Shown here: positions 18,128 to 25,126 of the stretch, in pieces
Layout of the letters: each line of letters opens with the position of its first letter
How positions within the stretch are numbered: the first letter of the stretch is position 1
Assembly (NCBI GenBank): GCA_026552955.1
Contig: JAPMTS010000039.1
Location: 1 to 54,617, forward strand
Source: Candidatus Methanoperedens sp.
Lineage (GTDB): Archaea; Halobacteriota; Methanosarcinia; Methanosarcinales; Methanoperedenaceae
Direction: 5' to 3'
Length of the DNA stretch: 54,617 bases
Program-made: the position numbers and the translations under genes
Notes under the pieces: generated by a model
Databases searched by the model: none
The model's input: the letters and a program-made list of their open reading frames with translations, nothing else
Told to the model about the DNA's origin: nothing

Positions 18128-18925
18128 TTAGCTATTCTTTAAGGATGACTTTATTTTTTCATCTAGTCTTTGTCTAAAATCATTTAGCGGCTTTAAGGAA
18201 ATCTCGTCGGTTCCCCTCTCCTTTACATAGAATTCGAATGGATTGTCCAGATCTTTAATAAGCACGATCATATATGTCTGCAAAAATGCGATTGCGCTTA
18301 TAAAAAACATAGCCTCGTAAATGGGGTCTATTTTAACAAATATCAACCCTATTATTAGAAAAACGGTAATTGCTTCTGCAATTGCATATCCTGCCGAAAC
18401 AAAAGAGGTTTCGCGGATGGTATGGATGCGGGTCAATATGCGTCTGATCACACTTTGCTCCTGCTTTAATCGGGCAATAAAATTCGCCTGTGTCAGCGAC
18501 TCAAAATCGAGGAAAAAATCATTGAGACCTGAGAGGTTATCCATTAATGACCTGGTGCTCTCTTTTTTGTAGAACCAGCCATTGATGGAATCTATCATGC
18601 CCAGAATATATACAAGGGATTCCTCTGCGGGTTTTGCTTTTGTTTTTTTGTAGATTATCATGCATTCGTCTGCTATAGTTTCAATACTTATGGCCAATTC
18701 TCCTGGCAGTTTCTCACTCTCTTTGTAATCGGTCAATACGCCAGCAAGGAGAAAACCCAGCAGGAAAATATTCGCAGTGACAACGCCAGAAAATAGTGGG
18801 TTTAAAGAAATGAATTCCCCGTTGAACTGATGAGCAATAAATTTGAGAATAATAATTAATCCTACGAACGGCAGGATCTTTAATGCTAAATACCATTTCT
18901 TGTATAATTTAGAAATCATAGTCAT
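18128..18925 (-). CDS. Membrane protein, bestrophin-like / DUF4239-type
   Basis: A 265-residue protein with two N-terminal helices (about 14-32 and 43-63), a long central helical region (about 70-170) rich in charged residues, and two further helices (about 178-225) ending in KDLDNPFEFY. This arrangement and the DLDNPF segment resemble bestrophin-like DUF4239 membrane proteins, which are possible anion channels; the assignment is by pattern only. Its start overlaps the end of the truncated permease gene by 17 nt, so it has been placed by rearrangement or by loss of the permease's 3' part. Confidence 0.5.
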   Translation of the reverse strand: MTMISKLYKKWYLALKILPFVGLIIILKFIAHQFNGEFISLNPLFSGVVTANIFLLGFLLAGVLTDYKESEKLPGELAISIETIADECMIIYKKTKAKPAEESLVYILGMIDSINGWFYKKESTRSLMDNLSGLNDFFLDFESLTQANFIARLKQEQSVIRRILTRIHTIRETSFVSAGYAIAEAITVFLIIGLIFVKIDPIYEAMFFISAIAFLQTYMIVLIKDLDNPFEFYVKERGTDEISLKPLNDFRQRLDEKIKSSLKNS

Positions 18926-19199
18926 TTTTTAGAGCAACAAAGGATAATACCCAACCAAAAGCGTTCAATGCATATACGTACTCTGCTTCTGCCTTTGGGA
19001 ACATGGAGGAAAGCTCTGCATAGCTCAATCCCGTAAATACGGCTATAAACGCAGCAAACGAGAGCCAGACAGAGGTCCCTGCAAGCCCGGCGGCTTTTCT
19101 TATCAGGGCGTATATACCAGCCCCAACAATTATACCCACACCTGAAAGGGTAACTTCAAGTAATCCCAGTTCCCGTTTCAACTCAACTTTCTGGCTCAT
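18909..19199 (-). pseudogene. Truncated amino acid permease (APC superfamily), N-terminal fragment
   Basis: The first about 85 residues are a clear APC-family N-terminus: ELGLLEVTLSGVGIIVGAGIY (helix 1 with the substrate-binding GxGxGxIY-like turn), LSYAELSSMFPKA (helix 2-3 loop) and EYVYALNAFGW. The frame then stops after 96 codons, whereas permeases have 400-500. The rest of the gene is absent and the bestrophin-like gene begins inside its last codons. The fragment keeps two to three helices and is unlikely to work as a transporter. Confidence 0.75.
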
Positions 19200-19435: not shown

Positions 19436-19550
19436 ATTTTATGCTCCTTTTATGTAAAACAATCCTCATTCTGTTTCTTACGTTATTATTAGTAATTATG
19501 ATAAAATATTTAAACTTAACGGTTAATTCTTGAGAGAAAAGGTGAAAAAA

Positions 19551-20498
19551 ATGTGGCTTCAGATTAGATTGTATTTATTGCTTGGATTGATGTTCGCTAT
19601 TGTCTATGCAGTGATAGCAGCAGTAGCAGGTTCCATGGGAATTTCAAGTTTTGCTTTCTATGGAGTACTTGCATCAGGAATGATCCTGGTGCAATATATG
19701 ATTGGTCCAAAGATGGTTGAATGGAGCATGGGAATCAGGTATGTTTCAGAGTCCGAATATCCTTCACTGCACAGGATGGTAGCAGAGATGGCACAGAAAG
19801 CCAAAATACCAAAACCACGCATAGGGATCGCAAATGTTCCTATCCCAAACGCCTTTGCCTTTGGCAGATGGAAGAGCGACGGAAGGGTGTGTGTTACAGA
19901 GCAGATACTGCGCCTCCTTTCACCCGATGAGCTAAAAGCGGTGATCGGACATGAAATAGCACATCTTAAGCACAGGGATGTTGCTGTGATTACTATGCTT
20001 AGCGTAATACCGATGATCATGTGGTATATTGCATGGAGCACCATGTTTTCAGGAGGTCGTGACCGTGGAAATGCTGTTCTTATAGGAATTTTTGCCTTCC
20101 TTATGTACATGGTAACAAACCTGCTGGTTCTCTATGCATCCAGAATAAGGGAATATTATGCAGACGAAAGGAGCGTCCAGCTAGGTAATTCTCCCCATGC
20201 GCTTGCTTCGGCATTGTATAAACTGGTCTCCGGAAGTGCACGAGTCCCAAAAGAAGAACTCAAACATACCGAAGGGCTAAAAGCTTTTTTTGTGAATGAT
20301 CCTTCACGCGCGATGAACGAATTAAGGGAACTTTCCCAGATCGATAAGGACAAAAGCGGAACAATTGACCAGCATGAACTGATGATGTTATCAACCAAAA
20401 AAGTCAAAGTCAGTACATCAGATAAGATAATGGAACTTATGAGCACACACCCGAACATGGTAAAACGAATTCATAGACTCTCAAAAATTGCAGGTTAG
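19551..20498 (+). CDS. htpX: HtpX-family membrane zinc metalloprotease with an EF-hand-like loop
   Basis: A 315-residue M48 protease that in bacteria degrades damaged membrane proteins. Two N-terminal helices are followed by the zinc motif HEIAHLKHRD (residues 134-138 from this start), two more helices and the third-ligand region REYYADE. Near the C-terminus DKDKSGTIDQHE (residues 265-276, bases 20343-20378) matches the 12-residue EF-hand calcium loop at every ligand position (D1, D3, S5, G6, I8, D9, E12). I chose the ATG at 19551 because AAGGTGA (19539-19545) is a Shine-Dalgarno 5 nt upstream; an upstream TTG at 19530 is in frame but would place that site inside the gene. Confidence 0.9.
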   Translation: MWLQIRLYLLLGLMFAIVYAVIAAVAGSMGISSFAFYGVLASGMILVQYMIGPKMVEWSMGIRYVSESEYPSLHRMVAEMAQKAKIPKPRIGIANVPIPNAFAFGRWKSDGRVCVTEQILRLLSPDELKAVIGHEIAHLKHRDVAVITMLSVIPMIMWYIAWSTMFSGGRDRGNAVLIGIFAFLMYMVTNLLVLYASRIREYYADERSVQLGNSPHALASALYKLVSGSARVPKEELKHTEGLKAFFVNDPSRAMNELRELSQIDKDKSGTIDQHELMMLSTKKVKVSTSDKIMELMSTHPNMVKRIHRLSKIAG

Positions 20499-23927: not shown

Positions 23928-25126
23928 ATGGAAAAATTAAAAAGACTGGACTTGAACCTCCATGTTATTTGGGGTAAAAGAGGAATCCTCTCATTTGTGC
24001 GGTATTTTATCAGTCGAAATGGAAGAAGACCCTGAAAAAGCTGCACAGAAATTCCTTTTAGAACATTTAAAATTATTTAAAATCAAAGAGAGTATGGAGG
24101 ATTTAATGTTTCTCAGAAAAACAGAAAGTCTTGGGGGATTCCATGTTGTATTCCAGCAGTTAATTGCCGGTCTACAATGCTTTTACTTCGGTCCATATGG
24201 ATAAATGTAATCGGATCAACAAAATCGATATCTGTTACCATCCAGATTTGCCTTTAGAATTGCCTCTGGAAAAAGGCATTTCACAGGAGGAAGCGATCAG
24301 GATTGCCATTGATACTCTTAATGTGCAAAAAAGAGTTGCTGGGACTGTTTCTGGAGAACAGGTTATCTATCCAAAAGATGATACGTTCTATGTGGCTTGG
24401 AAGGTGGCAGTGCCTCTCATTAATCCTGTCGAGGAGTGGCATGTATTTCTTGAGTTTATAGGAGGCAATATACTAGATATTCTGGATGCACTCCTTAAGG
24501 CCACAGGAAGAGGAAGAGTTTTCATACCAAATCCAGTAGTGGCTCTGGGAGACAGGTTACTTACTGCAGAATCCGAAATTCCAGATAGAGCTTATACCGA
24601 TGTTGTTCTCAATGATCTTGACAAATCGGGTTATCTGAAAGGTCCTTATGTTGATACATGCACAACTCCGAATAGAGCAAAAGAACCGGATTTGATTTTC
24701 AACTATTCAAGGTCTGATCCAGGATTCAAGGAAGTAATGGCTTATTATCATATTGACACCGCACAACGATATATACAGAGCCTTGGATTCACAAACTTAT
24801 GCAGTAAGACAATTAAAGTGAATGTTCAAGGGGATTTCGTGAATAACTCATATTACAATCCTGATGCCAGGGAATTAATTTTTGGTACCTGGTATATTGA
24901 CGATGCACAAGATGCTGATATAATCCTGCATGAATATAGCCATGTCATGCTGGATGAACAGGTACCGGGTTTTGGGCATAACTGGAATACTTGTCCAATC
25001 GCAGAAGGATTTGGTGATTTCTTCGCTGCGTGTTTTTTTGCTGAAATAAATGGTGGTTTTAACCGGGAGTTAATGCTGCGAATTCGTGATGAAGCGCGTG
25101 GATTAATCACCCAGTTCTTTCTTTAG
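23928..25126 (+). pseudogene. Decayed fungalysin/thermolysin-like metalloprotease (FTP + PepSY + HExxH domain)
   Basis: Three frames join into one protease. From 23928: MEKLKRLDLNLHVIWGKRG and LSFVR. From about 23990, next frame: GILSVEMEEDPEKAAQKFL with ESLGGFHVVFQQLIAG, the FTP propeptide. From 24164, third frame: PVYNAFTSVHMDKC, a PepSY-like stretch and a peptidase domain with HEYSHVMLDE and AEGFGDFFAA (the zinc ligands of M4/M36-type enzymes). It ends early after GLITQFFL. The second break lies at TTGCCGGT and fits loss of 8 bp between two copies of that sequence. No signal peptide is visible. Confidence 0.75.

Follow-up and report, generated by a model that had tools for sequence, protein, structure and literature searches.

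The locus described here raises the question of whether a calcium-binding EF-hand loop can be a genuine part of an HtpX-type membrane protease and, if it is, what it might do there. The loop was predicted from the letters of the window, by which we mean the whole stretch of 54,617 nucleotides from the genome of a methane-oxidizing archaeon, Candidatus Methanoperedens, that was analysed, and its assignment to an HtpX protease is borne out: the open reading frame at 19530-20498 is an intact HtpX/M48 gene by its motifs and by its match to Peptidase_M48 (Pfam, 141.1 bits against a cut-off of 20.3), a family also matched at E up to 1 by 43 of 43 relatives. The frame is listed from a TTG, and residues are numbered here from that codon; the likelier start is probably the ATG at 19551, 5' of which an SD-like GGTG can be made out by eye at 19541-19544. 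The features that the argument needs are as follows.

19530..20498, plus strand: open reading frame of the HtpX-like M48 membrane zinc protease, 322 residues
19950..19964, plus strand: HEXXH zinc motif HEIAH, residues 141-145; H141, E142 and H145 invariant in a 43-row alignment
20151..20153, plus strand: third zinc ligand, E208 of EYYAD, an invariant column of the 43-row alignment, with its role taken from E201 of BepA (PMC7950410)
20301..20333, plus strand: entering helix of the EF-hand, residues 258-268, in the AlphaFold2 model
20343..20378, plus strand: predicted EF-hand calcium loop DKDKSGTIDQHE, residues 272-283, from translation, Pfam, profile match and conservation
20370..20390, plus strand: exiting helix of the EF-hand, residues 281-287, in the AlphaFold2 model
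20415..20438, plus strand: helix connecting EF-hand and plug, residues 296-303, with invariant E302, from the AlphaFold2 model and the alignment
20448..20468, plus strand: HPx4R active-site plug HPNMVKR, residues 307-313; H307, P308, K312 and R313 invariant in the 43-row alignment

Judged by its translation, the catalytic and plug motifs of this EF-hand-bearing HtpX/M48 protease are intact, and its kinship with HtpX and M48 predicts zinc-dependent proteolysis of membrane proteins as its function. The window protein reaches no NCBIfam HtpX equivalog cut-off (best model 226.7 bits against 341), and by these scores it is inside M48 and outside every named HtpX equivalog that it matched. It also scores 34.9 bits against Peptidase_M56 (cut-off 31), and no beta-lactam sensor domain was seen in it with Pfam.

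Translation gives DKDKSGTIDQHE at exactly 20343-20378 and, as the original prediction held, every ligand position of the EF-hand is filled (D at 1, D at 3, S at 5, the backbone at 7, D at 9 and E at 12), with G6, I8 and L13 also present around the loop. The window protein scores 21.9 bits (E 1.2e-4) against the Pfam model EF-hand_5, below the gathering cut-off of 25.9, a value that the relative L102 equals; 40 of 43 relatives match the model at E up to 1. When the whole genome (2.48 Mb) was searched with EF-hand_5, the top match was the window site (E 1.9e-4), followed by the equivalent position in a paralogue with 67% identity (E 1.1e-3); the third-ranked site came only at E 0.19. A profile of the last 74 residues of 39 relatives, searched against PDB sequences, matched 250 distinct entries at E up to 0.01, and the 60 of these that were listed are EF-hand proteins only, namely CDPK, centrin/caltractin and calmodulin, the last in one case as part of a fused sensor. 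CDPK was best among the matches listed (E 1.1e-9), followed by calmodulin (5.6e-9), values inflated by the repeated hands of these proteins, whose best single stretches in the two alignments listed have independent E-values of 0.05 and 0.15. The whole-protein profile found HtpX, Ste24p and then caltractin (3.6e-4), whose loop DTDGSGTIDAKEL aligned beside it. The genome-wide ranks and the PDB matches of the segment profile thus argue that the loop is not a product of chance. Dockerin type I was considered and rejected, as the window protein gave no match to it at E up to 10 in Pfam and the relatives L124 and L102 scored 13.4 and 13.7 bits against a cut-off of 22.9. No second EF-hand was found: no Pfam model matched more than one EF-hand stretch in the window protein or in its relatives, and we therefore regard this as a single motif and not as a paired-hand EF-hand domain. 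Lone EF-hands are often weak binders.

Conservation of the loop was followed through 250 loci, taken from GTDB genomes (56 loci) and from searches of further genomes, among which 174 distinct proteins reached 245 bits or more with a profile of the EF-hand-bearing type (EF-type). The loop is ungapped in 172 of these 174, and 171 of the 172 keep the ligand set D1, [DNS]3, [DNSTE]5, [ILVMC]8, [DENSTGQ]9, [ED]12, a rule picked after the failures of a stricter pattern had been seen; D1, D3 and E12 are thus not lost in near relatives, the outcome on which the original prediction was staked. That stricter pattern, PROSITE PS00018, is matched by 127 of 141 relatives, and its 14 failures comprise 12 with a hydrophobic residue at non-ligand position 4 only, L115 with S at position 6, and L180. 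The last is also the lone exception to the ligand rule, its loop DPGHSGVITMEA having lost positions 3 and 12 in an otherwise normal protein. The loop count omits the two proteins in which the loop is absent, one cut by a contig end (L083) and one with a 50-residue in-frame deletion (L033), and open reading frames below 200 amino acids, such as L086, were not entered. In the deleted form, which is the same record as L079 (L079:3001-3810), an EF-type HtpX has lost the segment up to mid-loop, by natural decay or by assembly error. Since L180 has a broken loop and L033 lacks the region, the hand is not strictly needed for the gene to persist. The searches for relatives used the window protein or profiles that include the loop, and one of six peptide patterns sits in the end of the loop; the resulting bias is probably small, though above zero, since L180 still scored 463 without the full ligand set.

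Among 49 representatives below 70% identity, entropy is 0-1.37 bits at positions 1, 3, 5, 6, 8, 9 and 12 and 2.21-2.98 bits at positions 2, 4, 7, 10 and 11, so that the seven ligand or structural positions separate completely from the five others, one of 792 possible arrangements. Free variation at position 7 is expected, since that position binds through its backbone. The substitutions seen in relatives (D/N at 3, S/D/N at 5, I/L/V at 8) are familiar ones in EF-hands, and the ligand rule has no other occurrence in 15,800 sequence windows of the 49 representatives. Two deeply divergent HtpX proteins from the phylum of L076 (L249 and L250, 264 and 256 bits) carry full EF loops, DLNGDGVLDERE and DLDGDGVIDQRE.

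The AlphaFold2 model of the window protein, built on 39 rows (pLDDT 78.9, pTM 0.79), places a helix at 258-268, the loop, a helix at 281-287 and then a helix at 296-303 leading towards H307, which agrees with the helix-loop-helix that had been foreseen from the residues flanking the loop. Mean pLDDT is 74 for residues 261-270, 76 for 271-280 and 81 for 281-290, and only 59 for 251-260, where the entering helix begins. Modelled alone, the segment keeps the same helix order at a pLDDT of 55, and a fold search with this poor model returned nothing significant, two of its three matches at E 7.8-8.8 being EF-hand proteins (2opo, 6dah). For the protease as a whole the best Foldseek matches were Ste24p (E 1.2e-4), the HtpX domain 3cqb (1.4e-3) and ZMPSTE24 (3.1e-3), of which only the first falls below 0.001.

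The hand occupies a well-defined place. In 31 of the 37 EF-type representatives measured (of 38), the third zinc ligand and the plug histidine lie 99 residues apart (range 97-104), against 55-64 residues in 22 of the 24 HtpX proteins of other types measured (of 41; outliers L204 with 89 and L121 with 110); in the remaining 1 and 17 proteins the search patterns found no match. Set against 55-64, this near-constant spacing implies that the hand is inserted as a cassette of some 36 residues, nearly fixed in length, between AFF and STHP. The cassette is absent from nearly all of the ordinary HtpX proteins measured, among them a third copy in this genome. The outlier L121 (L121:1-3001, genome G077) is also an HtpX, but the insert that it has at this position is of another kind and contains no EF loop; the protein shares SDP and FSDKLAELFSSHP with the EF-type proteins, and its insert may be a sister state of the EF cassette.

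What makes this placement suggestive is the element that follows. The EF insert runs directly into the HPx4R plug, whose H307 comes 24 residues after the last ligand, E283, across one short helix with the invariant E302. The HPx4R motif is conserved across the M48 family PF01435 and present in HtpX, and in E. coli BepA its histidine is the fourth zinc ligand of a plug that blocks the substrate site and must move for activity (PMC7950410). The VIA alignments end at model 322 on BepA chain 261 and at model 320 on ZMPSTE24 472, end-point positions that by themselves are consistent with H307 lying over BepA H246. HtpX protease domains face the cytoplasm (PMC9263693).

These findings lead us to favor, at a probability of roughly one half, the reading that the gene product is a membrane zinc protease of HtpX type into which one genuine EF-hand has been inserted, between the AFF segment and the HPx4R plug, and in which Ca2+ in the loop would set the plug, the hand acting as a calcium-dependent arm that controls it. 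Ca2+ would be held by D272, D274, S276, the T278 backbone, D280 and E283, and once bound would fix the angle of the two short EF helices and hence of the connecting helix 296-303 that carries H307. By stiffening the hand it would govern the ease with which the plug comes off the zinc and admits substrate, making the enzyme calcium-responsive or calcium-primed on its cytoplasmic side. We infer that the metal would be calcium, that its binding would move the plug and that calcium swings would be large enough to matter. A loop beside the part thought to open and shut the active site suggests, at the level of sequence and model, an enzyme that is either steadied or switched by calcium.

The alternative that calcium only steadies the protein, in a loop that is always filled in the cell and merely braces the inserted helices and the plug arm without any sensing, is a real if somewhat doubtful possibility. 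A lone hand that hardly varies in position or length, with a near-invariant loop, is what such a structural site would look like, and many bacterial EF-hand sites are structural. However, free calcium in the cytoplasm is usually low, so permanent filling of a loop on a cytoplasmic protease domain would need high affinity, and most of the other-type HtpX measured manage without the insert. A different metal in vivo appears improbable to us: EF-hand loops can bind Mg2+, Mn2+ or lanthanides, but the nearest loops among the PDB matches listed are those of calmodulin, centrin and CDPK. The loops of lanmodulin carry proline at position 2. Among the 49 representatives this proline is confined to one, the degenerate loop of L180, and a lanthanide loop was rejected on that ground.

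Still less probable is that the hand serves docking or dimerization, with two protomers pairing their single hands and the metal secondary. EF-hands usually work in pairs, and only one matched stretch is seen per chain, but it is the metal ligands that are fixed while the other loop positions are free. The idea of a chance resemblance, or of a relic loop without metal, we find barely credible. It can draw on the sub-threshold Pfam score of the window protein and on the lost positions 3 and 12 of L180, but chance is ruled out by the conservation together with the genome-wide EF-hand_5 rank, and the contrast between ligand and non-ligand positions, with 171 of 172 loops intact, likewise tells against a relic.

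Returning to the calcium-dependent arm that we favor, the type of protein that carries it extends well beyond this genome, and the range of the original prediction is widened accordingly, to an EF-hand loop common to a subfamily of archaeal and bacterial HtpX. The titles of GTDB-derived relatives include Methanoperedens, Methanolliviera, Methanofastidiosum, Altiarchaeales, Thermoplasmatota, Omnitrophota, Dehalococcoidia and Syntrophaceae; since most relatives are metagenome-assembled, single taxon placements may be misbinned. Within the window's family, an EF-type match (E below 1e-100) occurs in 29 of 34 genomes (G000 to G033), the deleted form L033 in G028 included, and is absent from five (G007, G011, G013, G018 and G029); it occurs in none of 26 other genomes of the order. 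Among the matches listed for 294 genomes of the phylum, 50 in 48 genomes score at least 390 bits and all reach model position 311-314, and three more are partial EF-type matches (G073, G291 and G098). The remaining matches listed start at 228 bits and end at model position 248-249, with the exception of that in G077, which reaches position 310 at 204 bits with its other kind of insert. In other phyla, at a cut-off of E up to 1e-75, EF-type matches were found in 73 of 193 genomes for the phylum of L066 (Omnitrophica), 32 of 194 for that of L076 (Thermoplasmatota), 5 of 198 for that of L081 (Syntrophaceae), two of these being contig-end pieces, and 3 of 201 for that of L070 (Dehalococcoidia); there were none in 200 genomes for the phylum of L088 (Burkholderiales), a sample that held no genome known to match.

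A tree was built from columns outside the insert, after L004, L087, L089, L200, L203, L204 and rows below 80 bits had been dropped. When the long rows L121 and L205 are left out, a branch with 100/99 support separates the EF-type proteins from the others, and the genome's own ordinary HtpX (L003) falls outside the EF-type side. With these rows included, the EF-type is not recovered as one clade: the free tree needs two changes, the EF-type is one side of a branch in only 4% of 200 bootstrap trees, and the one-clade tree is unrejected (p-AU 0.328). A separate FastTree run did recover the split between EF-type and other proteins, at a low support of 0.328. Since L121 has an insert without an EF loop, the insert may have come first and the hand later, or the hand may have been lost.

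The paralogue in the same genome offers a possible functional context. On contig C31 (L002:1486-3504), genes for a short M48/M56-like peptidase and a BlaI-like repressor precede it on the same strand; the peptidase is over the cut-off for Peptidase_M48 (35.1 bits against 20.3) and under that for M56 (21.1 against 31), and the repressor matches Penicillinase_R (41.0 bits against 22.6). Of the 93 EF-type loci above 3 kb in length, 25 have relatives of both genes next to the EF-type gene, and all 25 come from Methanoperedens or, by title or kinship, the window's family; the window copy (L001) has neither partner closer than about 1.5 kb. We may speculate that cytosolic calcium, acting on the zinc-plugging histidine by way of a single EF-hand coupled to it, would open or lock HtpX in archaea and candidate bacterial phyla, and that the second Methanoperedens copy, with its repressor and peptidase neighbors, would belong to a calcium-dependent proteolytic signaling relay, a full scheme that we hold unlikely as it stands and put forward tentatively.

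Other genes of the window drew our attention in passing. A 96-residue frame at 18909-19199 (minus strand) matches only positions 1-80 of the 427 of AA_permease_2 (30.7 bits) and looks like a truncated permease gene; after it, at 18128-18925 on the same strand, comes an unrelated 265-residue membrane protein, whose Bestrophin-like match is weak (9.2 bits) and under the cut-off. Two plus-strand frames at 23962-24204 and 24164-25126, overlapping in different frames and containing a HEYSH motif, look by eye like one secreted metallopeptidase gene broken by a frameshift; neither piece has a Pfam family over its cut-off.

Compared with known systems, the window protein shares with HtpX (M48B) the HEXXH motif, the third-ligand E, the HPx4R plug, the N-terminal hydrophobic helices and the M48 fold (against the HtpX domain 3cqb, VIA Z 13.0 with 2.8 A over 96 residues; against ZMPSTE24 4aw6, Z 13.9 with 4.1 A over 225), and differs from it by the EF-hand insert. 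With calmodulin, centrin/caltractin and CDPK it has in common the 12-residue loop, the ligand pattern and the flanking helices, but its hand is single, lies within a membrane protease and has no paired lobe. BepA (6sar, VIA Z 11.7, 4.4 A over 159) has the same plug, with its histidine as a zinc ligand, but is periplasmic and carries a TPR domain, and the accessible text on it mentions no EF-hand (PMC7950410). BlaR1/MecR1 of M56 has a related metalloprotease fold (VIA Z 11.3 to 8exs/8ext, 6.2 A) and recalls the BlaI-like penicillinase-repressor gene close to the paralogue, but the sensor domain of that system is not visible here. The view that an EF-hand is not a described feature of HtpX is upheld for HtpX and M48 as far as a keyword search of the open literature, in part accessible, gave no description. 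HtpX and the EF-hand are each known; to judge by that search, an unnamed HtpX subfamily with one embedded EF-hand is new. Automatic annotation can miss it, since the window protein lies outside the NCBIfam HtpX equivalogs and scores just short of the cut-off that Pfam sets for the EF-hand.

To our knowledge, directly calcium-controlled archaeal enzymes are few and archaeal calcium signaling is poorly understood. With an EF-hand joined to its regulatory plug, this quality-control protease is a concrete candidate for a calcium effector in archaea, and it raises the question of whether the M48 plug mechanism can come under second-messenger control.
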